Shown piece by piece: positions 1 through 20,309 of a stretch of 20,309 nt of DNA. A program made the translations under genes and the position numbers. The stretch spans positions 1 to 20,309 of the IMG/VR virus record IMGVR_UViG_3300024520_002965, one strand, 5' to 3'. The number at the start of each line of letters is the position of its first letter. Positions within the stretch are counted from its first letter, which is position 1. Source of the DNA: a virus. The notes beneath the pieces were generated by a model. The model was not told the origin of the DNA, ran no database searches, and saw only the letters and a program-made list of their open reading frames with translations.

Positions 1-461
1 GCCGCTCTGAAGCTAGCGCGGCTGGCTGTACTGGTTCCTTCCTCTGATGTGCACAACGTGCGCCATCCACCGACAGCCAAGAGACCAGCATGCATAGCCT
101 GGTTCCTTACTGGGTCCGGGTCCAGGTCCCAGGTCTTCCCCGGTGGGTCAACGTAGCCGTGTGCACTGATGGAAGAGAGCAGGTCTCCCCATGCAATGTC
201 CGCATCGTCCAGTTCCGACAGCGCCACCGATGGGGTGTGACTCTTGAGCACACCTGGGGTGGGCCACCACTTGGAGTCTGGACTCTCCAGGTAGGAGAGC
301 GCCGCCATCATGGCCTCGTTGTCTGAGCATCCCGACAGGATGACCTCGTAAACCTTGAGCCCTGACCTCGCCCTATCGGCGGAAGCCCATGCTGCTGGGG
401 GTTTCAATCCTGCATCCTCGAACAGTCCGAAGATAGCTCTCACTGTGTCTTCACTTGCCAT
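1..461 (-). CDS. Helicase loader/inhibitor-like replication protein (partial, C-terminus beyond left edge)
   Basis: The frame is open from ATG 459-461 to the window edge, about 153 residues with no stop. AAAGGAG lies 8 nt upstream and overlaps the stop of the replication gene before it. The N-terminal half (YEVILSGCSDNEAMMAAL, then a proline/tryptophan segment, WWPTPGVLKSH) resembles the G39P/helicase-loader pattern of phages, in which a small helical domain precedes a 'P-T-xx-I/L' motif. The second half (AWGDLLSSISAHGY... HAGLLAVGGWRTLC) matches a C-terminal pattern common to such phage proteins: 'AW..v...i..yGy ... a+...GgWr.lc'. Family knowledge says these proteins deliver or restrain the replicative helicase at an origin. 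Being directly downstream of the initiator gene fits that role. The function is inferred from pattern and context, and the C-terminus is unseen. Confidence 0.55.
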   Translation of the reverse strand, partial: MASEDTVRAIFGLFEDAGLKPPAAWASADRARSGLKVYEVILSGCSDNEAMMAALSYLESPDSKWWPTPGVLKSHTPSVALSELDDADIAWGDLLSSISAHGYVDPPGKTWDLDPDPVRNQAMHAGLLAVGGWRTLCTSEEGTSTASRASFRA

Positions 462-466
462 GGTCT

Positions 467-1276
467 CTACTCCTTTGTGAATGGGATCACCACTCGGTTC
501 AATGTCTCTGGTTCGTCCAACGCTTCGTCCAACAGATCCGACAGGCTGCGGTAGCTACCCTGCTTTGGGGTGTGCACTCGCTCAGCATCGGAGTGTGCCA
601 TCTCCAGGTACATGTCGAACTTCGTCCCAATGAGGGTATCCACATCGTACCCACCCTCTCGAAGAAAGAGAGCCCGGTCATGGGATGACCTCAGGTACCA
701 GTCAATCACCCTGAGAAGATCCTCAGGCTTGTGGTCCTGAAGTCTGGCGTTGAGGTGGCGGCGGCGCTTGGATGTCAGCTTCAAAGCACGGGCCTTGCCT
801 CCCTCCTTCCGGGCATCGTTGATCTTCTTCCAGGTGTCAGCGAGACCTAAGTTGGGGTTTACTTTGTGTTTAGGATCAGAGGTCTGTTGTTTGTTGTGTG
901 TTGTTTGTAGATCCGCGCGTGTGGAGGCGGGCTGGAGGCGGGCTGGATGAGCGTTGGATGTGGGCTCATGTGATTCCGGTGGTTTAGGTGCTCCATTCTG
1001 GATGGGCGTTGGAGGCGGGCTGGAGGCGGGCTGGAGGCGGGCCTTCCAAGAGGCCTCATCCTTCATGGTCGCCCTGGCCTGCCAGTCGGTCCAGCCCCAA
1101 CGCTCGCACAGTGCTGGCCTGCCCGGTCTCTTCTTCCTACCCATGCACTCCTGATCAGCCCACCAGCGGAGGTCCATCAGTACCGCATCACGAGGCCACG
1201 GCTTGGGCAGTTCAATAGCGATGTTCGGCCACCACCCGACATCGAGTGGGAGCCATGGCTTTGTAGTCTGCTTCAT
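467..1276 (-). CDS. Phage replication initiator (O-protein-like layout: N-terminal winged helix, repeat-coded linker, C-terminal partner domain)
   Basis: 269 aa from ATG 1276, preceded by GAAAGGAT with 5-nt spacing. An in-frame ATG at 1291 would add MKGYT and also has AGGA-like sequence. Residues about 1-75 look like a phage replication winged-helix domain (WWPNIAIELP..WPRDAVLMDLRWW.., then RPALCERWGWTDWQAR..MKDEASWKA, the usual 'WGW' recognition-helix region). Residues about 79-120 are a low-complexity linker rich in Ala/Arg/Pro/Ser, encoded by 11-bp DNA repeats. The C-terminal part (LTSKRRRHLNARLQDHKPEDLLRV IDWYL.., ending TLIGTKFDMYLEMA) is the conserved phage-replication C-terminal pattern. 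By analogy with lambda O, the first domain should bind the iterons in its own gene and the last should recruit the helicase or loader encoded next. It is separated from the upstream rusA by 86 nt containing a hairpin. Confidence 0.75.
   Translation of the reverse strand: MKQTTKPWLPLDVGWWPNIAIELPKPWPRDAVLMDLRWWADQECMGRKKRPGRPALCERWGWTDWQARATMKDEASWKARLQPASSPPPTPIQNGAPKPPESHEPTSNAHPARLQPASTRADLQTTHNKQQTSDPKHKVNPNLGLADTWKKINDARKEGGKARALKLTSKRRRHLNARLQDHKPEDLLRVIDWYLRSSHDRALFLREGGYDVDTLIGTKFDMYLEMAHSDAERVHTPKQGSYRSLSDLLDEALDEPETLNRVVIPFTKE
846..910. other. Strand-asymmetric, A/C-rich (minus strand) tract beside the iterons; candidate DNA-unwinding element
   Basis: The plus strand here is almost free of C and dominated by T and G (for example TGTTGTTTGTTGTGTG). 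The minus strand is therefore an A/C-rich tract with runs such as AACAACACACAACAAACAAC. It is more AT-rich than the flanking coding sequence and begins 11 bp from array A. In lambda-type origins an asymmetric A-rich tract lies beside the iterons and is where strands open. That role is inferred here. In protein terms it encodes a Gln/Thr/Asn/Lys-rich part of the linker. Confidence 0.5.
922..1042. repeat. Two arrays of four 11-bp direct repeats (iteron-like), consensus TGGAGGCGGGC
   Basis: Array A has units at 922, 933, 944 and 955; array B at 999, 1010, 1021 and 1032. All are spaced exactly 11 bp, and the gap between arrays (966-998) is 33 bp, so both arrays are in the same 11-bp phase. Five units are perfect (922, 933, 1010, 1021, 1032). 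The others are TGGATGAGCGT (944), TGGATGTGGGC (955) and TGGATGGGCGT (999). Eleven is not a multiple of three, so each unit is read in a different frame; the conserved object is the DNA, not a peptide unit. Lying in the linker of a replication initiator gene, this matches lambdoid and plasmid iterons bound by the initiator. Confidence 0.75.
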
Positions 1277-1304
1277 TGTGTATCCTTTCATGTCCTGTTC
1301 CTGT

Positions 1305-1362: not shown

Positions 1363-1821
1363 TCAAGTCACCGCAGCCTTTCCATTGTACTCGATAAGGG
1401 GAAATACTTCCACCTCCACATGGGGGCTCTCATCCCGTGCTGCGAAAAGGTCATAGCACTCCACGTAGCAGACTTGGGCGTCATCATAAAACACCAGCGG
1501 GTTGTCCTTTGTACCCTGGAGGCTGTCAAGAAGGGCCTTCAGGGTGTTGTCTATGTCGCACCGATGAGGCCGGTACAGCCGGGTGTCGGGGTCCCTCTTG
1601 CGGAGCAGGCGCTTGGGTCTCTTGTGCACAAAGCAAGCACGCACACCCACCGCTCCATCAAAGGGCTCAGCCCTGTGGTTGGCACGGATGATGGTGCTCG
1701 CCATGTCCAGCCAGGCACGTGTCTTCTTGTCAGTGTAGGCACGAGCGAACCCACCACGTGTGGTGATCCTGGGTCTGCCCATGGGGACAGGCTCCCCCGG
1801 GATGATGCAGGTGAACCTCAC
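1363..1821 (-). CDS. rusA: RusA-family Holliday junction resolvase
   Basis: 152 aa from a GTG start at 1819-1821. The GTG overlaps the TGA of the upstream regulator (GTGA) and is preceded by GAGGGAG. The ORF is open further upstream, but that extension is Cys/Ala-rich and coincides with the regulator's coding sequence. RusA hallmarks are present: an N-terminal strand and P-G-x-P-x-x-x-x-R motif (IIPGEPVPMGRPR), and the catalytic core CDIDNTLKALLDSLQ with D89, D91, K95 and D99, followed by FYDDAQV (D113/D114). E. coli RusA is 120 aa; the extra length lies between the first strand and the core. The family is known to cut four-way DNA junctions as a metal-dependent dimer; here it would resolve recombination or replication intermediates before packaging. 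It is translationally coupled to the regulator gene. Confidence 0.9.
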   Translation of the reverse strand: MRFTCIIPGEPVPMGRPRITTRGGFARAYTDKKTRAWLDMASTIIRANHRAEPFDGAVGVRACFVHKRPKRLLRKRDPDTRLYRPHRCDIDNTLKALLDSLQGTKDNPLVFYDDAQVCYVECYDLFAARDESPHVEVEVFPLIEYNGKAAVT

Positions 1822-2165
1822 TTGCTCTCCCTCGCCAGCAACTCCAGCGCACACAGCCGCTCGAATGCACGCAACTCCAGCGCAGTGAAAAGATACCAGA
1901 GAGCATTGGCCGGTGGCAGCCGTGAGCCACCCTCCCAACGTGACACGTCAGGCTGGCGCACCGCCCTGCCCAGGTGACAGATGCGAGCAGCGATGTGCCC
2001 CTGTGACAACCCTATCTCCTCCCGGCGCTGACGCAGAAACCCCCCGATAGTGGGCCCTCCCTCCCATTCCAGGTGTGACATCTCCTTCAGCTTGCTCTTC
2101 TCCTCCTCCGTGATCTCCACCTTCAATGGGTCCGTGGGTTCGCGCCAGAATCTGTCCTTGTCCAT
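1818..2165 (-). CDS. XRE-type helix-turn-helix transcriptional regulator (repressor-like)
   Basis: 115 aa from ATG 2163-2165, preceded by GGAGG with 5-nt spacing; this is preferred to a longer form starting at 2219 that lacks a clear site. Residues about 41-97 (IGGFLRQRREEIGLSQGHIA...VRQPDVSRWEGG.. PPANALWYLFTAL) read as a lambda-repressor-like HTH: an 'L+..R...gLsq..iA' helix 1-2, an enlarged turn, a 'Q..VSrWE.G' recognition helix, then a closing helix. The first 40 residues are charged, and there is no visible peptidase or cleavage domain. It is the first gene of the leftward operon and faces the rightward recombination operon across a palindrome at 2195-2209. It is therefore likely to control one or both. 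The direction of control (repressor or activator) is not visible. Confidence 0.75.
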   Translation of the reverse strand: MDKDRFWREPTDPLKVEITEEEKSKLKEMSHLEWEGGPTIGGFLRQRREEIGLSQGHIAARICHLGRAVRQPDVSRWEGGSRLPPANALWYLFTALELRAFERLCALELLARESK

Positions 2166-2194
2166 GACTGCCTCCGTGGTATTATTTCCAATGA

Positions 2195-2209
2195 ATGCTT
2201 GACAAGCAT
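2195..2209. promoter_or_regulatory. Perfect palindromic operator candidate (ATGCTTG-A-CAAGCAT)
   Basis: Two perfect 7-bp half-sites around a single central base, in the 94-bp region between the divergent HTH regulator and the recombination operon. The palindrome covers a perfect TTGACA hexamer on the plus strand (2199-2204) and a TTGTCA on the minus strand (2200-2205). A dimeric HTH protein bound here would be expected to block promoters facing both ways. It is the only clear copy I found in the window. Confidence 0.6.
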
Positions 2210-2228
2210 ATGCCACCATGTCATGAAT
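2199..2228 (+). promoter_or_regulatory. Candidate promoter for the rightward recombination operon
   Basis: TTGACA (2199-2204) is a consensus -35 box lying within the palindrome. The -10 region at 17-18 bp spacing (CATGAA / ATGAAT, 2222-2228) is only a weak match to TATAAT. No better promoter was seen in the divergent region for this direction. The leftward promoter is also expected here (TTGTCA on the minus strand) but has no convincing -10. Confidence 0.35.
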
Positions 2229-2259: not shown

Positions 2260-2487
2260 ATGAATCTCACAGAACAACTGTTCCAACAGTTCTCAACGGC
2301 AGCCCACCAAGACAGGGGAGCCATTGAAGACATGCTTGCCAGCCAAGAGAGGCAAGACCCACCCAACAAGCACGCAGCTTGGTACCGCCGCCAGTACGAG
2401 AAGGTGTCTCGGTCCCTTCGGATTGCGCTCCAACGCATTGACGAGTTGGAGGCTGAACTCAAGGCCCTGAAGGAAGGTGAAGAATGA
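2260..2487 (+). CDS. Small coiled-coil protein of unknown function (75 aa)
   Basis: The start is ATG 2260 with AAAGGAG 8 nt upstream; an in-frame ATG at 2227 lacks such a site. The protein is charged. Its C-terminal third (RSLRIALQRIDELEAELKALKEGEE) has a heptad-like pattern and is probably a short coiled coil. The stop overlaps the start of the single-strand annealing gene (ATGA), so it is coupled to it. I do not recognise the family. As first gene of the recombination operon it could be an early regulator or an accessory of the annealing protein, but this is context only. Confidence 0.7.
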   Translation: MNLTEQLFQQFSTAAHQDRGAIEDMLASQERQDPPNKHAAWYRRQYEKVSRSLRIALQRIDELEAELKALKEGEE

Positions 2488-3143
2488 GTACCAAGATTGA
2501 CCTACCCTACCTGCGGAAGATGGGTGCCATCATCAAGCTGCAAGGCAAGGAGTACACCACCCACCAGGGGCTGCTCTATGTAGCCCACCAGCAGGGCATC
2601 ACCTCTATCACCACTGAACTGGTGTCGGAAGATCAGGACAAGCGCCGCGCTGTGTTCAAGTCAACAGCCACTGGAGAACGCGGCACCTTCACAGGCTGGG
2701 GAGATGCCGACCCCTCCAACGTGGGCAAGATGATCGCCAGCGCCTACCTCCGAATGGCGGAGACACGAAGCATCAGCCGCTCCCTCCGCCTGTACCTGGG
2801 CATAGGCATGACGGCCTATGATGAGTTGCCCGGGAAGGAACAGGAAGAACCAGCACCAGCACCAGCACCAGCACCAGCACCAGCGCCAGCGCCGGTTGAG
2901 CCCGAACCACAGAAGTGGAGCGACAAAGAGCGCAAGACGTTCATGGCTCGCATCGCACAGCCTGACATCAACTACCGGTACGAGGTCATCAAGAAGATGT
3001 GCGAGTTGATGGAGAGGCCACCACCCTCACTCATGGAGGAAAAGCAACGGCAAGCACTCATTGCTTTCTGTCTCACGGAAAGCGGACAACTGAAACTCTC
3101 CGATGCCCACGCGGTCATCGACTACCACCGAGGTAACCCATGA
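2484..3143 (+). CDS. ERF/Rad52-like single-strand DNA annealing protein (recombinase)
   Basis: 219 aa; the start ATG overlaps the upstream stop, with AAGGAAGG ahead of it. The N-terminal domain (residues 1-115) carries the pattern typical of phage annealing proteins: a beta-sheet stretch (HQGLLYVAHQQGITSITTEL..), then the GERGTFTGWGDADPSN segment and the helix AYLRMAETRSISRSLRLYLG, the usual 'A..RMAETRAi.RALR..+g'. Residues 123-137 are a Pro-Ala linker encoded by a CCAGCA microsatellite. A C-terminal helical domain (about 145-219) follows. The family pairs complementary single strands for phage recombination and repair. Co-location with SSB, Gp157 and RusA supports this. The exact subfamily (ERF or another Rad52-fold clade) cannot be settled by eye. 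Confidence 0.8.
   Translation: MSTKIDLPYLRKMGAIIKLQGKEYTTHQGLLYVAHQQGITSITTELVSEDQDKRRAVFKSTATGERGTFTGWGDADPSNVGKMIASAYLRMAETRSISRSLRLYLGIGMTAYDELPGKEQEEPAPAPAPAPAPAPAPVEPEPQKWSDKERKTFMARIAQPDINYRYEVIKKMCELMERPPPSLMEEKQRQALIAFCLTESGQLKLSDAHAVIDYHRGNP
2850..2891 (+). repeat. (CCAGCR)7 hexanucleotide microsatellite coding a Pro-Ala linker
   Basis: Five identical CCAGCA units followed by two CCAGCG units, in frame within the annealing-protein gene. They encode a rigid Pro-Ala linker between the annealing domain and the C-terminal domain. Such repeats are prone to copy-number change by slippage, which would alter linker length without breaking the frame. Confidence 0.85.
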
Positions 3144-3649
3144 CAACCACGACTGAACTGCTGAACCAAGGACTGGAACTTCTGCTTCAACTGGAAGAGG
3201 TTGGAGGAGAACTCACCGAGGAGTACATGGCCCTTGTCTCCACATGGATGGAGGGAACCGGCGACAAGCTCGGAGGCATCTATTTTGTGCGCCAACAAAC
3301 ACGGGGACAGATGGAGCTACTGCGGGAGGAAGAGAAGCGCCTCGCCAACAGGAGGAGGGGCATGGAGAAGCTGCTCGACCATCTCAACAGCAGCGCCCTC
3401 TCCCTGCTCAAGCAGAGGGAAGCGTTCGGGGAGGAGCCCAAGGTGAAGACCCCGACCTACACCGCCTGGTTGCAGTCATCAAAGAGCGTCACGCTTGAGG
3501 AAGGGGTGACCATTGAGGAGGTGCCGGAGTCTTACCGCATTCCACAGCCCGACAGACTGGACAAGGCAGCAGCCAAGAAGACCATGGCGGGCGGCATGGG
3601 AATCCATGGGCTGAAGGTCATCGAGTCTGAATCAGTCAGGTGGAGGTGA
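3140..3649 (+). CDS. Siphovirus Gp157-like protein
   Basis: 169 aa; ATGA overlap with the annealing gene, GAGGT 6 nt upstream. The N-terminus (LLQLEEVGGELTEEYMALVSTWM.. GDKLGGIYF) and the long central helix (ELLREEEKRLANRRRGMEKLLDHLN, about residues 55-95) match the Gp157 layout: a short 'g.lteE....l' region, then a K/E/R-rich coiled coil, then a conserved tail (VTIEEVPESYRIPQPDRLDKAAAKK) resembling the 'iPeeY..p..p.+dK..ik' motif. The family was named from Streptococcus thermophilus phage Sfi21 and is regularly found beside phage annealing proteins and SSB. Its molecular role is unsettled; context suggests work on DNA during recombination. Confidence 0.75.
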   Translation: MTTTTELLNQGLELLLQLEEVGGELTEEYMALVSTWMEGTGDKLGGIYFVRQQTRGQMELLREEEKRLANRRRGMEKLLDHLNSSALSLLKQREAFGEEPKVKTPTYTAWLQSSKSVTLEEGVTIEEVPESYRIPQPDRLDKAAAKKTMAGGMGIHGLKVIESESVRWR

Positions 3650-3896: not shown

Positions 3897-4274
3897 ATGG
3901 CAAACAAAGTATTCCTGCTCGGCAGGCTGGGCGCTGACCCAGAAGTAGTAGAAACCAAGACAGACACCTCAGTCACCAAGCTGCGCTTGGCTACGACAGA
4001 ACGTCGCAAGGGAGCAGACGGTGAGTGGGGCGAGGCAACCGAGTGGCACAACATCGTGTGCTTCGGGCGCACCGCAGAGAACGTGGCTGCCTACACAGCC
4101 AAGGGCAAGGAGCTATACATCGAGGGTGCCCTGCGTACCCGCAAGTGGGAAGACCGGGACGGTAACGCCCGCTACTCCACTGAGATTGTAGCGAACAACG
4201 TCCAGTTCATTGGCCCACGAGTGGAGCGCAAGGAACAGAACAACGGGTACAACGAAGACATCGCCCCGTTCTAA
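3897..4274 (+). CDS. ssb: Single-stranded DNA-binding protein
   Basis: 125 aa, AAGGAG 7 nt upstream. Classical bacterial-type SSB OB fold: NKVFLLGRLGADPEV at the start, then LRLATTERR, the signature TEWHNIVCFGRTAENVAAYTAKG, ELYIEGALRTRKWEDRDGN and STEIVANNVQFIG. The C-terminus is short and ends DIAPF, a variant of the acidic DDIPF tip that binds partner proteins. The linker is much shorter than in E. coli SSB (178 aa), as is usual for phage SSBs. It would coat single strands during replication and work with the annealing protein upstream. It is the last gene of the rightward operon, and hairpins follow immediately. Confidence 0.95.
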   Translation: MANKVFLLGRLGADPEVVETKTDTSVTKLRLATTERRKGADGEWGEATEWHNIVCFGRTAENVAAYTAKGKELYIEGALRTRKWEDRDGNARYSTEIVANNVQFIGPRVERKEQNNGYNEDIAPF

Positions 4275-5862: not shown

Positions 5863-6159
5863 CTACTTCTTAGCCGCTTTCTTCTTGGGTGCTGCCTTCT
5901 TCTTGGCTGCCTTCTTCTCAGCACGACGCACACGAAGCCTCGCCAGAAACACGCCATGTGATGACTGCTTGGCTGATGTGGATACTACCCACTGAAGCAA
6001 CTCATCCAAGTCAAACTCAATAGGAACCCGCAGAACATCCCCCTCGTCTACAACCTCTCCTACTGTAAACGGAAAAGCACCCTGTCTTAGAAAGGCCCGC
6101 AGTGCAGCCAAGGCCGGCTTGCGAATGCCTTTGTCTGAGATGATCAGTTCATGGTCCAT
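5863..6159 (-). CDS. 98-aa protein with histone-H1-like Lys/Ala tail
   Basis: AGGAG 7 nt before ATG 6159. Residues 1-78 are a compact mixed domain (ISDKGIRKPALAALRAFLRQ, then VPIEFDLDELLQWVVS). The end (residues 80-98: AEKKAAKKKAAPKKKAAKK) is a run of AAKK-type units as in histone H1 and bacterial HU/H1-like tails. Such tails bind DNA or RNA nonspecifically through charge. Its place in the late operon between virion and lysis genes suggests a virion DNA-associated or condensing role, or an action on host nucleic acid, but the N-terminal domain is not recognised. The tail-coding DNA is a short imperfect repeat. Confidence 0.75.
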   Translation of the reverse strand: MDHELIISDKGIRKPALAALRAFLRQGAFPFTVGEVVDEGDVLRVPIEFDLDELLQWVVSTSAKQSSHGVFLARLRVRRAEKKAAKKKAAPKKKAAKK

Positions 6160-7571: not shown

Positions 7572-10500
7572 CTATTGACCCATTGCTTGGAGTTCTTGCT
7601 GCATAGCGTATCTCATTTGTACCAGTGCCTGTAGTTCCCCTGTAACCTTCATCGGGGTGGAAAGGTTGGAGGCATACGCCCACCAACTACCATCCCCGTG
7701 TCTCTTCATCTCCACATCTTCTGCGATTATACCAGCCTTGATCATATCGGTGGTGTACTCGCGGATGTTGCGGTCTATACCAATAGAGATGGCGACGGCC
7801 TTGAAGAAGTGCCACTTGAGTAGCCCCCCCTTGTCTTCAATGCGGTATTGGGTGGGCACCCCATCCTCATCAAAGGTGGGTTCACCTGGCTTCATCTTCT
7901 TTCTGGGGACAGCCTTGATGTTGAACCAATCCTGAGAGATCTCCCACAAACCAACCGACTTGAGGAACTGCACATAGCGTGCATCAAACACAGGACCGGG
8001 ACCCTCCCGTCTTTCCAGAAGCTCCTTCTTGTCTTTGTAATACGACAGAACGGGATGCTGAATGAAGTCATCAGCAAGGTACTCAGCCAATATGGCATCG
8101 CCATACCCTGACCCGAACACTATGGCCATCGCATTCACCAGGGTTCCAAACCCCTCGATGGCTGGCACCTGTGGCCCAAAGTGCCCGGTCCATACGCGGT
8201 CCCACTCCTCTCCGTAGAAACCCCACAGCCTGCTGCGCTGGTAGTCGTCCTCATACAGCCATGTGCCAGAGGCCTTCTGCTGCTGGTGAGATGTCACCAC
8301 CATTCTTCTCAGGTTTCTCACCGCCCCCGGATCCCGCACAAACGCCTTGGCTATTTCCACGATGTTCATCATCTGAAAGGCATAGAACAATACAAACTGT
8401 CCCACGTTTTTGCGAGTCTTTGGGTCGATGGCTCCGTAGTCAAGCAGTGCGTTGCGTGCGAGCTTAGCTGAGATCTCCGGTGTCTCTCCACGGGAGAGCG
8501 CTTCCCGAAACACAGCCTCGCGGAAAGCCATGTCTGCTTCCTCTGTCCAGCGGTTCCAGATGTTCTTGTGAAACGGATCCAGCCACCTGAGTGCGCTTCT
8601 CGTAGAACCCGCCGGCATGAAGTCGGGCTTCATCTTCGCAGCGCGGTACACATCCTTGATGACGTTGTCTCCCAACTGAAAGGTCACCTGGCTAAAGCGG
8701 ATGTTGTGCTTGTCCATCAGCTTGGACACTTCATCCCTGGTGTATTTGCGCCCTGCCTTGGTAACAATCACCACATCGCCTGGGTCTGCCCAGTATCTCT
8801 GCTGCAAGTAGGTGGACAGTTTGCGTGCACCGGGCACATTCGCCTCTTCAGCCACAGAAGCCAGCCGCTTTACCGACGCATCTGGAATGGCCTTTACGGC
8901 TGCCCATACATAGGAAGGAGAAGTGATCGCCACAATGAGGGGGGCGGTGACATTGTTCTGCCCGATGAAGCGCATGTTGGGAAGAGGAACACCACCCAGG
9001 AAACCACTGATGGTACCCCTGCGGATCGTGTCGATAGCCAGCCACAGATAGCCGCTAATCGCCTCGTCCAGTGGCTTGTCACGCAGGTTCAAAGCCTCCA
9101 GCCCCTCCCTCAGTTTCCCGCTGAAGGTGGCCTTCTTTACCGACTCATAAAGACCTTTGGACTGAGGAGTAAGAAAGATGCCCCGACCACCACTCATTCC
9201 CACAAGAGATGGGAAGACGCTGTAGTCGAACTGCTTCTTGCCGGTGACGCTAATCCCTATGGAGCCCAGCATCCCCATGTACCGATCCACATTCATGCTG
9301 GTGAGGGATTGGAAGACAGCCTCTGATACCTGTTGGGCGTATTGGGTACGTGCCGCTTCAAAGCCGTCCGACCCCTTGGACAGCCCACGCGCCTCCAACA
9401 TCTTGTCTATCTCTGAAAGGATGTTGTCAGAGCGGAGAATGACCTTGGTGACGCGGTCTTGGTTGGTGATGGACTCGTACAACCTGGCCTGCACCGACTG
9501 TCCGTTGACAGTTCCCTTTTCCACAATCTCACCCAGGGCCTGCTCTGCTACTTCCTTGCGGTTGGCTGGGGTGAGGGAGGCAGCGTGCTTTGAGATGGCG
9601 TCAGCCACAGACTCAGAAACCCCCTCGGCCACAATCGCTTCTGACACCTTTCCCTGCTCTCCTACGCTACGCCCGAAACCAATGAGCAACTCTGGGTAGG
9701 TCTGCGCCAGCTTCTGTTCGGCTTCTCCCAGCTTGGTCTTTCGGAACTTATCCATCGCCCAGACAGCAGCAGCAGCCATGGGCTCGTCAACCCCACCACC
9801 ACGCAGCGTGCGCTTTCCAAGCCCGCGACCCACAAGTTCAGGGTTCATGCCGCGAGCAAACTCAATGGCCTTCAAGACATTCTCAGCATCAAGGGTGTCT
9901 ATGCCCGCCTCTCTCAGCATGCTGGGAAAGGTGCTTGGTGCGTTCTTCTCAATGTTGAAAGCATCACCAAAGAAGTTCTTAACAATGGAGGTCAGCGCAT
10001 CAGCCGCATCCTCCAGCGGAGGCAGTGGAGTGTTGGTCTCCTTTGCTATGCGCCGGGTGAGAGCAAGGTCCTCACTCAGCAGGTCCTGCATCAGCATGTT
10101 CCATGCTTGCTCTGGAGAGTCTGCCTCCTCACCGTACTTGATGACCTTCCTTGTGAACTCAGCGGGCAACTCCACCACCATCTCTTGAAGCTCGCGAATC
10201 CAGGTATCCAACTCAATCGAGGTTCTTCCTGTCGTCTTGATGTTCTTTGCGGGAGGAGGAAACCCCTCATTGAGTAGGGCCTGAACCCCACGCCTCAATG
10301 TCCCCATGTTTCTGAACACGGTAAGCCGGCGTTGTACGGGCTCAAGAGAGCGCTCGGCAGCCGCCCCGGTGTACCGCAAGCGCACAGAACTTTTGATGGC
10401 CTGCATCCAGGTGTCTGCCGCCACAATGCCGTGCACCCAAGCATAGTCCTCTTGGCTCAGAGGCTTCGCTTTCTTCAGGTCTTGGTAGATCCGAAAGATG

Positions 10501-12626
10501 CGGGAGTTCTTGCCAATCGTAGCTGCTGGCATCTCCCTTCTTATGGCTGCCATCACCTGCTTCGGGCGCAGAAACCGCTGCTTGTCTCCCACCTGCGCGG
10601 TCTTGGTAATCTCCTTTATCTTTGAGTTGACCGCATCCCCCACCTCTGCCACCGCTTTCTTGGTGACAATGACGTAGTCGGTGACGCGAACCCAGTCGTT
10701 GGGAAGCACGTTGGCAAAGTGCTCCTTGAGCCTTCCCTTTGCAAGAGTCTTCACCACCTCCTCAGCGATGTCATCAGCCGCCACACCGATGGCCTCTGCC
10801 TTCCGTACCTGCTGGATGATCTCCTTACCAAGCAGGGTGTCCCCGAAGCGCAACACCCGATCTGTGTCCTTCGCTCCCTTTGCCACCTTGTCTGAAGCCT
10901 TTGCGACCCGGGCTGCCATTTCATAGATGGTCTCAAGCTCACCGATCATCTTTCCAGCAAGCGAGTCGGTGGGGAACTTGGCTCCCTTTCCTGCTCTAAT
11001 GGCTGACGCGACATCACCCGCCATCATCTCAGCAACCTGGCTGGGAACCGTTGCCTCCTCCAACACGAGAGCACCGCGAGCCTCCAACCCAAGCCCCTTG
11101 CTTACAGCCTCCACCTCTCTCTTTAGGATCTGTTGAGTGGCTGCCTTTACAGGCTCTGCCATGGTGTTGAAGACCTTGGCTACCTGGGGCAGATCAGCCC
11201 TTGCCGCTATGGAGCCGCCAGCAGAAAGTGCGCCCTTTACCGCCGGCTTTAGTACAGGGTATGGCGTGACAGGAAGAGGCAACTCTCCCAACGTTCCTGC
11301 TACCCAGGGTATCCATTCGTACCCAGTTCCCTGGTAAAGCCTTTGGGTGGCTTGAAGTCTGGCGGCATCATCACCCAGACCGTTTCCCAGCGCTACGGAA
11401 ATAATGATGTCTCTCTGCCAGCTACCTGTATTTGATTCTTCTCCCCTTCCTGCATGCCAAGGCGCGTCATCCGGTTTTTTTAGCGTTCGAGTAGCCGCCA
11501 TTGCTGTGGGAGCAAAGCCCGAAAGAGCAGCGGCATAGTTAGACAGGCTTTTTTCTCCAGACTGTAGACCTTGAAGAGCCTCCTCCTGGATTTGATAGAG
11601 CCTGTAGTTGATGTCTTCTGTGTCAAGAGGGTTGCCTTGCTCGTCCACCTCAAAGCTGATGGCATCCATGGCTGTCTTGGTAACAGGCCGAAACAATGAC
11701 ACCAGATCACGCATTCCGGCAGCAAGGGGGGTCTCGTAGGGAATGCCCTCTGAACTCTCGTTTACCAACGCCCATCGCGCCAACTGCTTGGCGTAGGAAC
11801 TCATGCTGCGCTGTGGCTTGTCCTCTCCTGGGATGTCAACGTCCTTGAAGGCAAGGTCGCGCCAGTCCAGGTACATCTCGTCAGCCAGATCGCGGATCTC
11901 TTCGTCCTGCTCCCTCTTCTTTGCGGTGGCTTCGGGGCTGACCGGCTCAACGCCTGGTTGATTGAAGTACAGCCTACGCGCCTCTGCCCTGAAATGCTGT
12001 CTCTTGGTGACCAACAGGTCCCTTGCGGCCCGCTCGTAGTAGTTCCGGTACACCGCCTGCCGGTCTTGCCCAGGGTTTTCCCTAAGAGCCGCCTGTGCTT
12101 GCTGCTTGGCGATTGCTCGCAGCGCGTTCTCTTCTTTCTGAAGGATTTGGTCTCGTTCCGTCTTCGCCTTCTTCATTGCCTCCGCGTCCTGTGGGGACAC
12201 CAGAGGTTGGGGCATGAGGGCGGCTACGAGTGCTTCAGATAGTGGCGATGTCTCCAACACACCAGGAGTAGGCGCTTCGATTCTTTTCCCTCTGGAGGTT
12301 CGAGGTGCCTCCATGACTTCTCTGGCAGCCGCAACACCTGCTTGTCTGGCTTGTGGTCCTGAAGCCTCAGGGGGCTGATCCATTGAAACGCTTCGAGCCG
12401 CCCCAGAAAAGGATCGCCCCATTGCTTCTTCACTGACGGGGCGTCGTTGGTTTGCCGACAAGTCACCCGGGTCTGCTGGTGGAACCGTACCAGTGGCTTC
12501 CATTCGTCTAAGAAGCTGTTCATAGGCAGCCTCAGCAGCTTCGGGACCCCACTGCTGTGCTTCGGATCGAACAAAGTCCGCCTCCAAAGGTGGCAGGTTG
12601 GCGAGTTGTTCCTCAGATACTGGCAC
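7572..12626 (-). CDS. Giant internal virion / DNA ejection protein (1684 aa, T7 gp16-position)
   Basis: The start is GTG 12624-12626 with AAGGAAG 4 nt upstream, inside the end of the 729-aa gene (14-nt overlap). It is almost wholly helical and charged, with a low-complexity N-terminal 150 residues, several hydrophobic patches in the C-terminal half (about residues 1210-1290) and a segment near residues 1390-1425 (ARNALLDYGAIDPKTRKNVG then FVLFYAFQMMN). That segment matches a motif I know from very large phage virion proteins ('a+.alfDY..l...E+...r.viPFy.w...n'). Size and order after 265- and 729-aa genes parallel T7 gp14-15-16 (196, 747 and 1318 aa), the proteins ejected to form the periplasmic DNA channel. 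I see no lytic transglycosylase motif at its N-terminus, unlike T7 gp16. Role inferred. Confidence 0.8.
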   Translation of the reverse strand: MPVSEEQLANLPPLEADFVRSEAQQWGPEAAEAAYEQLLRRMEATGTVPPADPGDLSANQRRPVSEEAMGRSFSGAARSVSMDQPPEASGPQARQAGVAAAREVMEAPRTSRGKRIEAPTPGVLETSPLSEALVAALMPQPLVSPQDAEAMKKAKTERDQILQKEENALRAIAKQQAQAALRENPGQDRQAVYRNYYERAARDLLVTKRQHFRAEARRLYFNQPGVEPVSPEATAKKREQDEEIRDLADEMYLDWRDLAFKDVDIPGEDKPQRSMSSYAKQLARWALVNESSEGIPYETPLAAGMRDLVSLFRPVTKTAMDAISFEVDEQGNPLDTEDINYRLYQIQEEALQGLQSGEKSLSNYAAALSGFAPTAMAATRTLKKPDDAPWHAGRGEESNTGSWQRDIIISVALGNGLGDDAARLQATQRLYQGTGYEWIPWVAGTLGELPLPVTPYPVLKPAVKGALSAGGSIAARADLPQVAKVFNTMAEPVKAATQQILKREVEAVSKGLGLEARGALVLEEATVPSQVAEMMAGDVASAIRAGKGAKFPTDSLAGKMIGELETIYEMAARVAKASDKVAKGAKDTDRVLRFGDTLLGKEIIQQVRKAEAIGVAADDIAEEVVKTLAKGRLKEHFANVLPNDWVRVTDYVIVTKKAVAEVGDAVNSKIKEITKTAQVGDKQRFLRPKQVMAAIRREMPAATIGKNSRIFRIYQDLKKAKPLSQEDYAWVHGIVAADTWMQAIKSSVRLRYTGAAAERSLEPVQRRLTVFRNMGTLRRGVQALLNEGFPPPAKNIKTTGRTSIELDTWIRELQEMVVELPAEFTRKVIKYGEEADSPEQAWNMLMQDLLSEDLALTRRIAKETNTPLPPLEDAADALTSIVKNFFGDAFNIEKNAPSTFPSMLREAGIDTLDAENVLKAIEFARGMNPELVGRGLGKRTLRGGGVDEPMAAAAVWAMDKFRKTKLGEAEQKLAQTYPELLIGFGRSVGEQGKVSEAIVAEGVSESVADAISKHAASLTPANRKEVAEQALGEIVEKGTVNGQSVQARLYESITNQDRVTKVILRSDNILSEIDKMLEARGLSKGSDGFEAARTQYAQQVSEAVFQSLTSMNVDRYMGMLGSIGISVTGKKQFDYSVFPSLVGMSGGRGIFLTPQSKGLYESVKKATFSGKLREGLEALNLRDKPLDEAISGYLWLAIDTIRRGTISGFLGGVPLPNMRFIGQNNVTAPLIVAITSPSYVWAAVKAIPDASVKRLASVAEEANVPGARKLSTYLQQRYWADPGDVVIVTKAGRKYTRDEVSKLMDKHNIRFSQVTFQLGDNVIKDVYRAAKMKPDFMPAGSTRSALRWLDPFHKNIWNRWTEEADMAFREAVFREALSRGETPEISAKLARNALLDYGAIDPKTRKNVGQFVLFYAFQMMNIVEIAKAFVRDPGAVRNLRRMVVTSHQQQKASGTWLYEDDYQRSRLWGFYGEEWDRVWTGHFGPQVPAIEGFGTLVNAMAIVFGSGYGDAILAEYLADDFIQHPVLSYYKDKKELLERREGPGPVFDARYVQFLKSVGLWEISQDWFNIKAVPRKKMKPGEPTFDEDGVPTQYRIEDKGGLLKWHFFKAVAISIGIDRNIREYTTDMIKAGIIAEDVEMKRHGDGSWWAYASNLSTPMKVTGELQALVQMRYAMQQELQAMGQ

Positions 12627-14803: not shown

Positions 14804-15601
14804 TCAGTTGGTCTCCAGTCCTATACTTTCATAGGCTTCCATTACTTCCCTAAACTCTGCCAAAGTCATATCCTTTACGCCCGTGGCATCTTCCATAGAT
14901 TTTTTCTGTTGAGCGACAGCCTCTGATCCACCATAAAGCGTGCCTATATCGTCAGCGGTTTGCATGAACTGAGCGAAGGCCTCATCAGTACGGCGAGCCA
15001 GCGCCTCCTCAGCATCCTCAGCACGCTCCTCCTCTCCCTCGATGAGTCTGAGAAGCTCCTCTCGCTGAGCGTCTTCTTCCCGCGCTGCGGCGGCTTCGAT
15101 CTGCGCTTGAATCCGTAGTTGATTCTCTGCTTCTACCGCATCTGCTGCCTGCTGAGAGCGAAAGATAGCACCTGGCTGAGTGCCCGGAAGACCTGCTGCT
15201 TGCTGTAGCCTTTGCTGTTGCGCCGCCCTTTGCCCAGCCACAGTGGGAACCAGAAAGCGATTCGCGATTTCCTGGTACTCGCTGTCTGAAAGAACCCCTT
15301 CCCGCTGCGCCTCCTCCAAAGCAGCCAATACCCTTTCACCTCTGGCTCGGTCTGCTGCGCTGCCCTTTCTGGCTCGCAGTCCACCAATGCCAGCGCCAAC
15401 TCCAGCCCCCACAGCCGTTCCTATCGCGGTTCCTATTGGTGCTGCGCCAAATGCGGCACCGATTCCAGTACCCACAGCCCCACCGACCTGTGAACCCATT
15501 GTGCCCCCCGCTGCCCGCCCAGCCATCAGCGCGTCTTGTTGGGCTTGTCGTAGCTGCGCCTCGTATTCTTCTGCTGTCGGTAGTCCGTATTCGTCTGGCA
15601 T
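14804..15601 (-). CDS. Gly-zipper internal virion protein (265 aa, T7 gp14-position)
   Basis: ATG 15599-15601 with AGGGGG upstream. Residues 32-75 are a long glycine-zipper (AAGGTMGSQVGGAVGTGIGA.. repeating GxxxG/A with Ala, Val, Ile), typical of helices that pack tightly in membranes or pores. The remainder is strongly helical and Ala/Gln/Glu-rich (QIEAAAAREEDAQREELLRL, EEERAEDAEEALARR). T7 gp14 is a small ejected protein thought to form the outer-membrane part of the DNA channel, and a Gly-zipper here suits such a role. It is first of the three-gene ejection set. Confident as a virion-type gene, less so on mechanism. Confidence 0.75.
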   Translation of the reverse strand: MPDEYGLPTAEEYEAQLRQAQQDALMAGRAAGGTMGSQVGGAVGTGIGAAFGAAPIGTAIGTAVGAGVGAGIGGLRARKGSAADRARGERVLAALEEAQREGVLSDSEYQEIANRFLVPTVAGQRAAQQQRLQQAAGLPGTQPGAIFRSQQAADAVEAENQLRIQAQIEAAAAREEDAQREELLRLIEGEEERAEDAEEALARRTDEAFAQFMQTADDIGTLYGGSEAVAQQKKSMEDATGVKDMTLAEFREVMEAYESIGLETN

Positions 15602-17126: not shown

Positions 17127-17782
17127 TATCGGTACCTATTGATTGCCATAAGGCTGCCGCCATCCCACCAAACCATGGGAAGCGCGTTGGAGGCATTTCT
17201 TTGTGGGGCAGTTGCTCTCCACCCGACAGACAGGCTCGATCCAATCAGTTGAGGCACAGGCACACTGGCACAAAGGTGCACATTGCCGCGCCCACGGTAA
17301 ATCTTTCCCGTTTGTGCAATGGTATTCCCATCGATTTGAAGACGAAACTGAACCCAGGTAAAACCGCCCGCATAGAGATCGAAAAAGTTAGTCCAAAACC
17401 AAGCATTGAAAAACAACTGCAACATGCCTTCTTGTATGTCGAAGGTCATATTTTCCCCATTGTTTACCCATTGACCCTGGTATTTCTCTCCCGTCAATCC
17501 CTCATAGGTCACGCCGCCACTTGTGAGAACATCCGCGTAGTTCTCATTCATGGAAAGTTGTGGGTTGGGCTGGCCGCTTCTGAAGTCACTATTGACAAAA
17601 ATCCGCATCATGGCTTGGTCTGCAATGTGCGTATCTGTCAACTGCCCAGTTTGGGACGGTAGGTTCATGTGATCGAAACCGCCGTTCACAACACCCTTGT
17701 ATTCGTTGTACTGGCGATCAAACTCAGGGCCTTCCAGCAGGTTCTGGCTTCTGATGTCTCGTGTGGTCCAATCAAAGCTCAC
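17126..17782 (-). CDS. Virion structural protein (218 aa)
   Basis: GTG start 17780-17782 overlapping the nozzle gene's stop (GTGA), with GGGGAAGA upstream. Aromatic- and Asn-rich, with a Trp/Phe-rich core (LQLFFNAWFWTNFFDLYAGG), a strand-like second half (FTWVQFRLQIDGNTIAQTGK, VHLCASVPVPQLIGSSLSVG) and an N-terminal region of short helices. No recognised family. It is the first of three coupled virion genes directly after the nozzle gene. It probably belongs to the tail or its appendages. Confidence 0.7.
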   Translation of the reverse strand: MSFDWTTRDIRSQNLLEGPEFDRQYNEYKGVVNGGFDHMNLPSQTGQLTDTHIADQAMMRIFVNSDFRSGQPNPQLSMNENYADVLTSGGVTYEGLTGEKYQGQWVNNGENMTFDIQEGMLQLFFNAWFWTNFFDLYAGGFTWVQFRLQIDGNTIAQTGKIYRGRGNVHLCASVPVPQLIGSSLSVGWRATAPQRNASNALPMVWWDGGSLMAINRYR

Positions 17783-20058
17783 GAGGTCTTCCCCTTGGCC
17801 GTTTGGGTCTTGTTCGTTTCGTATTCTACTGCATAGCCAAGAAGAACGATGTCCTCATTGGTGCTGATTTCAAAAGCAAAGTGACTCGCCGCCTCATTTG
17901 CTATTGGATAGCGAATCTCGGTAACCATTTCCTCCGTCCACGCAGAGGTTCCCCAAATGGCAGAGTCGTAAACCGTTTGGTCTGGGTGTTCGGGGCGCTG
18001 CATCTTGCGGCCCGCAGTGGTGGTTCCGGTGATTGAGTAGTCCTTGAAGTAGGTCATGGGGATCGCGTTGTCCCCCTCGGTCAGCACATACAGATAGACG
18101 TACTTCACAAACTTCTTCTGATTTGGATACCCAAAGTCCATCCATGCCGTTTTATAGGTAGAGGTGAGGGGAGGCCTAACAACCGCTGTGGGCGGATCTG
18201 TATTCGGGGTTGTATAGCCACCAATGCGTTTGCGGCTGATGACAAACAAGCCCGCCTCGTAGTTATCTCCAGGAGACCATCCAGTCGGCTTTCCGGTGTT
18301 GTTTCCAAAGACAAGATTTCCGTCATTGTCTGTAGCTATAGAGCCTACCGGAAAACCTTCCCGAAAACTCCAGGACTGTTTTTCTACGTGGTACACGATT
18401 CCTTTGGCCGGCTTCTGTTTTCCATCAAAAGGAATGTAGCAATGCCACTCCCCCCACTTCCGTGAATAGGCAGCCACCGATCTGGCTATCACTGAGGTTG
18501 TAGCTCGCTCAATCGTTTCAAAGATTGAATCAGAAAGCCTTTCTATCTGAAGGGAAGATCCGCCATCATTTGTGCCGCTGATGGCATACACACCGTCCTC
18601 AGATAGAAACATTACCCCAACACCAGGCACGGTTGTGATGGAGTTTGGCGCTCGTGTTCCCACACCCTGAACAAAAGGAGAACTGGTAAAACCGTTGGCG
18701 TTCATTGCGGGCCGAATCAGATCGATAGCTTTCTCACGGAAAACAAGAAGTTGGTTGTTGTAGACCTTGAAGCCCGTGATCGTGCCTCCCTCTTCAGTTC
18801 CAAAATCGAAAAAGCTGAGAGCACCAAAGGAATCTATCTGGTTGGGATTACTGAAATAAACCCGATATGGGTCATTCTGACCACCATCCAAGAACAACCG
18901 ACCCATATATGATGCGCCGAATCTGGGCGCGGCTGTAGGCATCAATACCGAATCGGACTCAAGAGGGGCCAGTCTTACAAGTCCTGCATCAGACACGTAG
19001 TCTACAAGAGCGGTATCATCGTTATTGTTGACCTGGAAGGCGTAGTAGAAAACTTCATCGGCCCCTCCAGCGATGGCGTCATCAGTAATAGAGGCAGTGG
19101 TTGACTGCTCTCCAAGGTTCTTGGTTCTATAGAGTCTTCGAGCAACTGTTCCTTGTGGGCCCTTCGGAAGATCCGACAGATAAACACAATGCCTTGAGGT
19201 TCCAAACAGCCCTTTGTCTCGATAACCAACGGGATTAGTAGGGGCGGCATACTGGGAGGTCGTGGGACCAATGTTTGTGGTCCAGGTCACAGAATCGCTT
19301 GCTTCTGAAAGTGGAGATTCTGACCCATTTTCACTGATAAAGGAAACCTTCCATCTATAGGCATTCACTTTTCCATCGGTGCCATAGCCAAGCCCATATT
19401 CCTGAGGATTGATATCCAACCTCCCGGACCCCTCTTTGAAAAGAAGGGGTAGAGCACCACCCACGGTCACTTTCGCAGGGTATTCGATTAGGGGTGCCCC
19501 TTGTGCGCCTGGGTTTCCACCGTCAGCTTCATCCACCTGCCAAGGTATAGGAGCGCCAGGAATACCATTCCACCCAAGCCGATACATCACCCCAGTCATT
19601 GGGTCAATCTTTAGCGGCCTATCGTGGCCGTTTAGAAAGATTAGATATCTACCGTATGGAACGTATTGAGCACCTGGCTCATCATCTGCTCTACGTTGAA
19701 GCGGTGTACGCCAAGTACGAAAAGCGGTCTCGGTGCCCGGATTACCAAAGACGGAACATAGCTGGTTCGTGCCAGAATCGGATCCCGGTGTTCCAACATA
19801 CCGCTCATACATGTAGTGCTCAATCGCTCCGCCTTGCGTGGACCAAACAAAGTTGCTGTATGTTTCTGTGTCATCATTGAAAGGACCATAGACAGCAGCC
19901 GATGACTGGAACTTTTCGTACCCAACACGGGAATCCCAACCACCGGTTTTTTGGTCAACAGTAAAGTTGGTTACGTTGTCCGCAGAGCGCTCTTCGGGTG
20001 GAACCTTTTGATCCACCCCCGTCAAGAACATTACCTCCAACCGCCGGTTCGTCTTCAT
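17779..20058 (-). CDS. Tail nozzle / tail-tubular-B-like protein (759 aa)
   Basis: The frame is open to 20250, but the likely start is ATG 20058: it follows the upstream gene's TGA by 2 nt (TGAGAATG), and the part before it is the out-of-frame image of that gene. No strong ribosome site is seen, so it may rely on coupling. The N-terminus (LTGVDQKVPPEERSADNVTN.. GGWDSRVGYEKF) is a typical opening of podovirus nozzle proteins. The middle has strands matching the shared region of these proteins (MGRLFLDGGQNDPYRVYFSN, TGFKVYNNQLLVFREKAIDL, GVGVMFLSEDGVYAISGTND, WHCYIPFDGKQKPAKGIVYH), consistent with a beta-propeller-like body. Length is close to T7 gp12 (794 aa), and it follows a connector-like gene as gp12 follows gp11. 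Confidence 0.8.
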   Translation of the reverse strand: MKTNRRLEVMFLTGVDQKVPPEERSADNVTNFTVDQKTGGWDSRVGYEKFQSSAAVYGPFNDDTETYSNFVWSTQGGAIEHYMYERYVGTPGSDSGTNQLCSVFGNPGTETAFRTWRTPLQRRADDEPGAQYVPYGRYLIFLNGHDRPLKIDPMTGVMYRLGWNGIPGAPIPWQVDEADGGNPGAQGAPLIEYPAKVTVGGALPLLFKEGSGRLDINPQEYGLGYGTDGKVNAYRWKVSFISENGSESPLSEASDSVTWTTNIGPTTSQYAAPTNPVGYRDKGLFGTSRHCVYLSDLPKGPQGTVARRLYRTKNLGEQSTTASITDDAIAGGADEVFYYAFQVNNNDDTALVDYVSDAGLVRLAPLESDSVLMPTAAPRFGASYMGRLFLDGGQNDPYRVYFSNPNQIDSFGALSFFDFGTEEGGTITGFKVYNNQLLVFREKAIDLIRPAMNANGFTSSPFVQGVGTRAPNSITTVPGVGVMFLSEDGVYAISGTNDGGSSLQIERLSDSIFETIERATTSVIARSVAAYSRKWGEWHCYIPFDGKQKPAKGIVYHVEKQSWSFREGFPVGSIATDNDGNLVFGNNTGKPTGWSPGDNYEAGLFVISRKRIGGYTTPNTDPPTAVVRPPLTSTYKTAWMDFGYPNQKKFVKYVYLYVLTEGDNAIPMTYFKDYSITGTTTAGRKMQRPEHPDQTVYDSAIWGTSAWTEEMVTEIRYPIANEAASHFAFEISTNEDIVLLGYAVEYETNKTQTAKGKTS

Positions 20059-20060
20059 TC

Positions 20061-20309
20061 TCAGCCCAGGGTTGTGAGGCTTGGGGTAGGTGCCGTGTAA
20101 AGCTCGCTCTCCTTGTATCCTCTCTTGATCCAGAAGGTAGCCCCCTCGGTGAGATGCCGGTTGCACATCTTGAGCAACTCCGCGTCTGCTTTGTGCCGAT
20201 ACATCTCGGAGTGCTGGAGGTTGTTGTGCTTGACGAACAACTCCTGGCAAGCCCGGTAGACCAGATACCGATGGCTGGCGCTGGGGAACTCAGGAACATC
20301 AGCATCGTC
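20061..20309 (-). CDS. Probable head-tail connector / tail-tubular-A-position protein (partial, N-terminus beyond right edge)
   Basis: 82 residues open to the window edge, ending in TGA 20061-20063, 2 nt before the nozzle start. The visible part begins DDADVPEFPSASHRYLVYRA, then CQELFVKHNNLQHSEMYRHK. This 'P.ip..yH..Lv..A...ly.+..d...a..y+.k' pattern is common in the C-terminal part of phage connector-type proteins. A polar tail ends TAPTPSLTTLG. Its position before the nozzle gene matches T7 gp11. Family assignment is tentative because most of the protein is outside the window. Confidence 0.6.
   Translation of the reverse strand, partial: DDADVPEFPSASHRYLVYRACQELFVKHNNLQHSEMYRHKADAELLKMCNRHLTEGATFWIKRGYKESELYTAPTPSLTTLG

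Follow-up and report, generated by a model that had tools for sequence, protein, structure and literature searches.

The iterons of phage lambda are near-inverted repeats of 18-19 bp, which are bound by dimers of the O protein and spaced 20-24 bp apart. In SPP1, oriL lies within gene 38, encoding the replisome organizer G38P, and comprises direct repeats and an AT-rich DUE, with the loader gene adjoining; gp38 at oriL provides the direct precedent for the initiator binding step (PMC6316719). ORF20 of phage 80alpha could not be complemented in trans, and autonomous replication was obtained from ORF20-21 alone, which lends genetic support to the binding step (PMC5499656). Iteron plasmids carry direct initiator sites in helix phase (PMC5043065), and lactococcal plasmids possess 22-bp iterons upstream of rep (PMC3387028). 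Judging from lambda O, SPP1 gene 38 and 80alpha ORF20, iteron origins nested in an initiator gene are an already known arrangement. We found no 11-bp iterons in phages in the literature searched; accounts in other journals are possible. The DNA analysed here (the window, a virus record of 20,309 bp) contains two arrays of 11-bp direct repeats. We consider it probable (approximately 0.77) that these arrays, at 922-1042, serve as iterons bound by the initiator, in a phage origin situated where the initiator gene itself encodes its linker.

The probable initiator gene and its neighbours

Gene 467-1291 probably encodes a replication initiator, of 269 aa if the ATG at 1276 is used or 274 aa with the ATG at 1291. 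Its product matched phrog_19658 (replication initiation protein) in PHROGs at 1.5e-4, or 6.3e-7 in a one-genome search, and had no match in Pfam or NCBIfam. The curated score for Phg_2220_C (PF09524/TIGR02220) was not reached. A profile of the Phg_2220_C domains of known phage initiators scored 11.8 bits over residues 166-232 of the window protein, while the best of 1000 shuffles scored 8.2 bits. The AF2 model based on a 14-row alignment was partly usable, with an HTH-like region at pLDDT of approximately 80-85, a C-terminal helical region at approximately 75-89 and residues 81-138 below 50, the latter being a predicted disordered linker; the single-sequence run was uninformative (pLDDT 38). 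The fold search with the AF2 model returned phage HTH and replication initiator proteins, a partly circular result, as the alignment of the model contained Aeromonas relatives, and the PDB fold search gave no match. The similarity to the Phg_2220_C C-terminal domain was distant in both sequence and fold. Searches of named phages, viral contigs and genome contigs yielded no close initiator homologue, and the match H41 was attributed to chance.

The genes for RusA, SSB and the Gp157-type protein lie close to the initiator gene (Table 1), likewise in several surveyed phages; the RusA protein had no close homologue in viral contigs. The position of gene 3-461 makes its product a candidate helicase loader. 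This product was similar to P0002 (BLASTP 5e-8, 26%), whose gene lies second after that of the Aeromonas phage 4_4512 initiator, and gave weak matches to phrog_9804/10105, a family with no described function. It was not assigned to any Pfam family.

Several further features were observed in the window. Protein gene 2484-3143 contains at 2849-2890 a codon-phased 6-bp repeat, (ACCAGC)n, read as a Pro-Ala repeat, and was one of just two control genes to exceed all of its shuffles in the survey described below. A small protein encoded at 5863-6159 has a histone-H1-like KKAAKKKAAPKKKAAKK tail. The 1684-aa protein encoded at 7572-12626 had no Pfam or PHROGs family and no relative in viral contigs. 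The virion protein encoded at 17779-20250 (phrog_3287) matched 'phage stabilization protein' weakly, and two short contigs (L005 and L006) contain relatives with 56% identity.

Table 1. Positions of the genes and DNA elements discussed in the text.
Feature	Position	Strand	Remarks
Downstream partner gene	3..461	-	reaches window end; candidate helicase loader
Probable replication initiator	467..1291	-	HTH-like N-terminal part, disordered linker, Phg_2220_C-like C-terminal part
A/C-rich strand-asymmetric tract	~846..911	-	directly 3' of arrays in coding sense; candidate unwinding/loading site
Array B	922..965	+	TGGAGGCGGGC x2 (922, 933), then near units TGGATGAGCGT (944) and TGGATGTGGGC (955)
Near unit TGGATGAGCGT	944	+	
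Near unit TGGATGTGGGC	955	+	
Spacer separating arrays A and B	966..998		33 bp; 11-bp register maintained
Array A, coding-5'	999..1042	+	near unit TGGATGGGCGT (999), then TGGAGGCGGGC x3 (1010, 1021, 1032)
Near unit TGGATGGGCGT	999	+	
RusA-type Holliday junction resolvase	1363..1821	-	PF05866 3e-21; phrog_140 1.8e-29; upstream, same cluster
HTH (Cro/CI-like) regulator, head of leftward cluster	1818..2219	-	HTH_31 1.2e-5, just under cut-off
Siphovirus Gp157-type gene, divergent early cluster	3140..3649	+	PF05565 1.1e-14
Single-strand DNA-binding protein	3897..4274	+	PF00436 1.4e-34

The repeat arrays and the adjoining tract

The unit TGGAGGCGGGC is present in five exact copies on the + strand (922, 933, 1010, 1021 and 1032), accompanied by three near units with 2-4 mismatches. 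The positions of the exact and near units delimit the two arrays, both spanned by gene 467-1291. The initial annotation had described two arrays of four 11-bp repeats each; the arrays are real, and the count of four holds only when the near units are included. Its claim of a single phase was correct, with all eight units in one 11-bp register across both arrays and the spacer, whose three 11-bp blocks are unlike the repeat unit. This common phase alone is weak evidence, since it would arise by chance in about 1 case in 11 or if the arrays were remnants of a single one. As had been proposed, the repeats fall in the linker-coding stretch of the initiator gene; they encode residues 79-119, almost all inside the predicted linker, between the HTH-like and Phg_2220_C-like domains. 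The exact two-unit sequence was not found in other viral contigs in the viral contig search.

The best repeat score of gene 467-1291 was equalled by 0 of 1000 synonymous-codon shuffles, and its highest lag-11 match (29/33) was likewise reached in 0 of 1000. Throughout the 20 kb, the two arrays were the only strong lag-11 segments (29/33 and 26/33), followed by a segment at 17/33. The differences between units were distributed over codon positions 1, 2 and 3 as 4/3/3, with no third-position bias, and the variant ACGC[C/T]CATCCA is common to the units at 944 and 999, which are read in different frames. The repeats could have arisen as a by-product of replication slippage lengthening a flexible Pro/Ala/Ser linker, the peptide alone being of importance. 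Linkers tolerate change, three exact copies amount to 33 bp, an in-frame length, and the peptide ARLQPAS is encoded in both arrays, all of which would suit such an origin of the repeats. However, slippage is unlikely given a repeat score beyond that of synonymous shuffles, the even spread of differences, the recurrence of variant units in other frames, and the distant relatives described below, in which, in contrast to control genes, the 11-bp DNA period persists as the peptide changes. The tandem direct repeats in the initiator coding sequence thus exceed what the peptide needs. It had been argued that selection must act on the DNA as 11 is not a multiple of 3; this arithmetic does not imply it, and the shuffles, the 4/3/3 spread and the family-wide period are what point to it.

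Two further alternatives to initiator-binding iterons were weighed. The units might serve as operator or other regulatory sites for another protein, e.g., the HTH repressor (1818-2219), or in autoregulation, with no origin involved. A repressor-like HTH gene does adjoin the cluster, but the arrays are situated approximately 235 bp inside the coding region, no promoter-like site was found near them, and the linker position of the repeats recurs specifically in initiator genes, so that we regard a regulatory role as improbable. Even less probable is a non-B structure (a two-tier G-quadruplex) formed by the G-rich + strand and pausing replication or transcription. The G4Hunter scores over the arrays (1.1-1.3) would allow it, but they are surpassed elsewhere in the window (1.76 near 15504), and the units of the relatives are mostly A/C-rich and incapable of such folding, yet keep the same 11-bp spacing.

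The A/C-rich, strand-asymmetric tract noted beside the arrays was confirmed, as the A+C content of the coding strand at 846-911 (52/66) is the window maximum, tied by overlapping positions only. The GC content of the tract was 0.40, compared to 0.55 overall, and the AT content decreased from the 3' flank of the arrays (0.55) to the gene (0.42) and the 5' flank (0.35). With regard to duplex stability, the tract ranks among the lowest 1.4% of the 60-bp windows, though it is not the minimum. The tract is AT-rich to a moderate degree only, and the destabilisation adjoining the repeats is likewise moderate. Cumulative GC skew was dropped as an origin marker, since the record, with just 1 kb left of the arrays, is probably a fragment.

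The 11-bp period among phage initiator genes

Of 19 phage initiator genes, that of the window among them, 14 had linker DNA repeats exceeding all 60 synonymous shuffles, versus 2 of 92 control genes drawn from the neighbouring genes. The shuffle statistic gave no significant linker repeats for TP901-1 rep and mEp390, and linker repeats are therefore common rather than universal. The annotated lambda O iterons were recovered by the repeat statistic, the lambda control lags being 23/24/20.

The 11-bp period was evaluated in 24 deduplicated relatives of the GWIKLHR/RWGWS type (23 from one IMG/VR scan, and Ray17). These relatives, which are not independent samples, had a mean lag-11 z of 2.89 versus -0.04 in 72 control ORFs (Mann-Whitney, 4e-10). 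In the per-lag table for the 24, the mean z was 2.83 at lag 11 and 1.73 at lag 22, all other lags from 7 to 40 remaining below 0.8. Following clustering at 40% identity, p11 was <= 0.05 in 12 of 16 clusters and <= 0.01 in 9 of 16, and 4 of 16 lacked the period; lags 10, 12 and 13 were at chance level, barring one 12-bp case. The units vary among lineages at the 11-bp spacing (AACTAACAAAC, TGACCAGGCAG, CAAACGATAAC, GATGAGGAACA, ATGAACAACAA, ACATCAAAACR and others), an S. aureus phage carrying a seven-fold ACATCAAAACR-like array. Among distant relatives, the linker peptide changes with the unit and the DNA period is mostly kept. The expectation that homologous linkers would diverge in protein and retain DNA repeats was thus borne out in 12 of the 16 distant clusters.

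The window displays the same 11-bp linker DNA period as the GWIKLHR-type genes. The closest relative found, obtained in the last profile scan (L088), contains 6.8 copies of a different 11-mer, AACAACAAATG, at the same place in the linker; pairwise BLASTP of the two initiators gave 31% and 6e-7 with the compositionally biased linker included. The N-terminal profile of the GWIKLHR group had no significant match to the window protein, whose alignment to the N-terminus of the group was limited to the short motif RWGWT. The tie of the window to the 11-bp group therefore consists of the C-terminal domain, the linker and short motifs, and its place there would be that of a distant member, judged by similarity of sequence. 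In the relatives, the AT content of the 60 bp 3' of the array was 0.77, versus 0.70 in the 5' flank and 0.68 in the gene. The period in homologues, the array of L088 and a tract located 3' of the array as in the relatives lend support, at the level of sequence, to the reading of the locus as an embedded iteron origin.

Many relatives also possess a DNA-conserved tract, ACAAACAAGAATGATAAGAAT, 3' of the array (L088 1119-1162; L084, L055, L058, L066 and others), which is a candidate unwinding or loading element. Across 23 non-independent genes, the Lys codons AAG:AAA were used 62:17 in this tract versus 142:450 in the remaining gene sequence (odds ratio 11.6, p 4e-21). The peptide NKNDKNNK served as a search pattern for relatives, with L084 and L088 found by other routes. 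This element is absent from the window, which lacks the AAGAATGATAAGAAT tract that many relatives carry directly behind the array. The initiator linker of Aeromonas phage 4_4512 (L007, 3140-3266) carries 2.8 perfect 45-bp units, each made of two 22/23-bp half units, and is a two-turn version of the 11-bp design. We tentatively suggest that a large, sequence-divergent phage group may share an origin inside the initiator gene, in which initiator-specific sites of lineage-dependent sequence recur at exactly one helical turn (11 bp) and a conserved A-rich tract in triplet phase (ACAAACAAGAATGATAAGAAT in many) comes next, the window being a GC-rich outlier.

Proposed mechanism and comparison with known systems

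According to the iteron model, initiator molecules would occupy the direct 11-bp units in succession, at one per helical turn and all on the same DNA face, with the N-terminal HTH probably making the contact. The resulting nucleoprotein array would strain or open the A/C-rich tract adjoining it on the 3' side, and the replicative helicase would be brought to the opened strands by the C-terminal domain and the 3-461 product. The opening step is modelled on lambda and the iteron plasmids (PMC5043065) and thus applies to the window by analogy; we infer binding, opening, loading and the status of the site as the main origin of the phage. A simple rule for locating origins in unannotated phages would be to scan the disordered initiator linker for a DNA period of 11 bp. 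Because the unit sequence changes while the spacing stays, the relatives could reveal which initiator residues read which bases, and they could also show whether spacing by a single turn leads to a filament-like, DNA-opening complex.

The initial description of the locus as lambda-O style is appropriate to its layout, with the putative origin in the initiator gene, a candidate opening tract 3' and the partner gene downstream. It fails for the iteron type, because lambda iterons are near-inverted and spaced 20-24 bp apart, whereas the units of the window are 11-bp direct repeats lacking such symmetry and spacing. The likeness between the window initiator and lambda O is one of layout. As in the window, the repeats of lambda ori lie where the initiator linker is encoded; the opening tract, a candidate in the window, adjoins them, and the gene for the helicase-recruiting partner is directly downstream, where the window has its candidate at 3-461 (PMC5043065). 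Iteron plasmids resemble the window in having direct sites in phase with the helix (PMC5043065), but their iterons are typically outside the rep coding region and their initiators belong to other families (PMC3387028). Based on its published description, SPP1 oriL shares with the window direct repeats inside the initiator gene (PMC6316719). In Staphylococcus phage 80alpha, the origin has been annotated and genetically placed within the initiator gene of the ORF20-ORF21 region (PMC5499656). Both 80alpha and the window have Phg_2220_C-type relatives, and a ssDNA-annealing protein, SSB and RusA are encoded nearby; the linker periodicity is 12/15/18 bp in 80alpha and 11 bp in the window. The GWIKLHR/RWGWS replisome organizers (L088, L058, L051, A403 and Staphylococcus phage ECel-2020a) have 11- or 22-bp direct linker repeats. 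Their units are mostly A/C-rich and form one continuous array, in contrast to the G-rich units and two arrays of the window, and like the window they carry an AT-richer tract 3' of the array.
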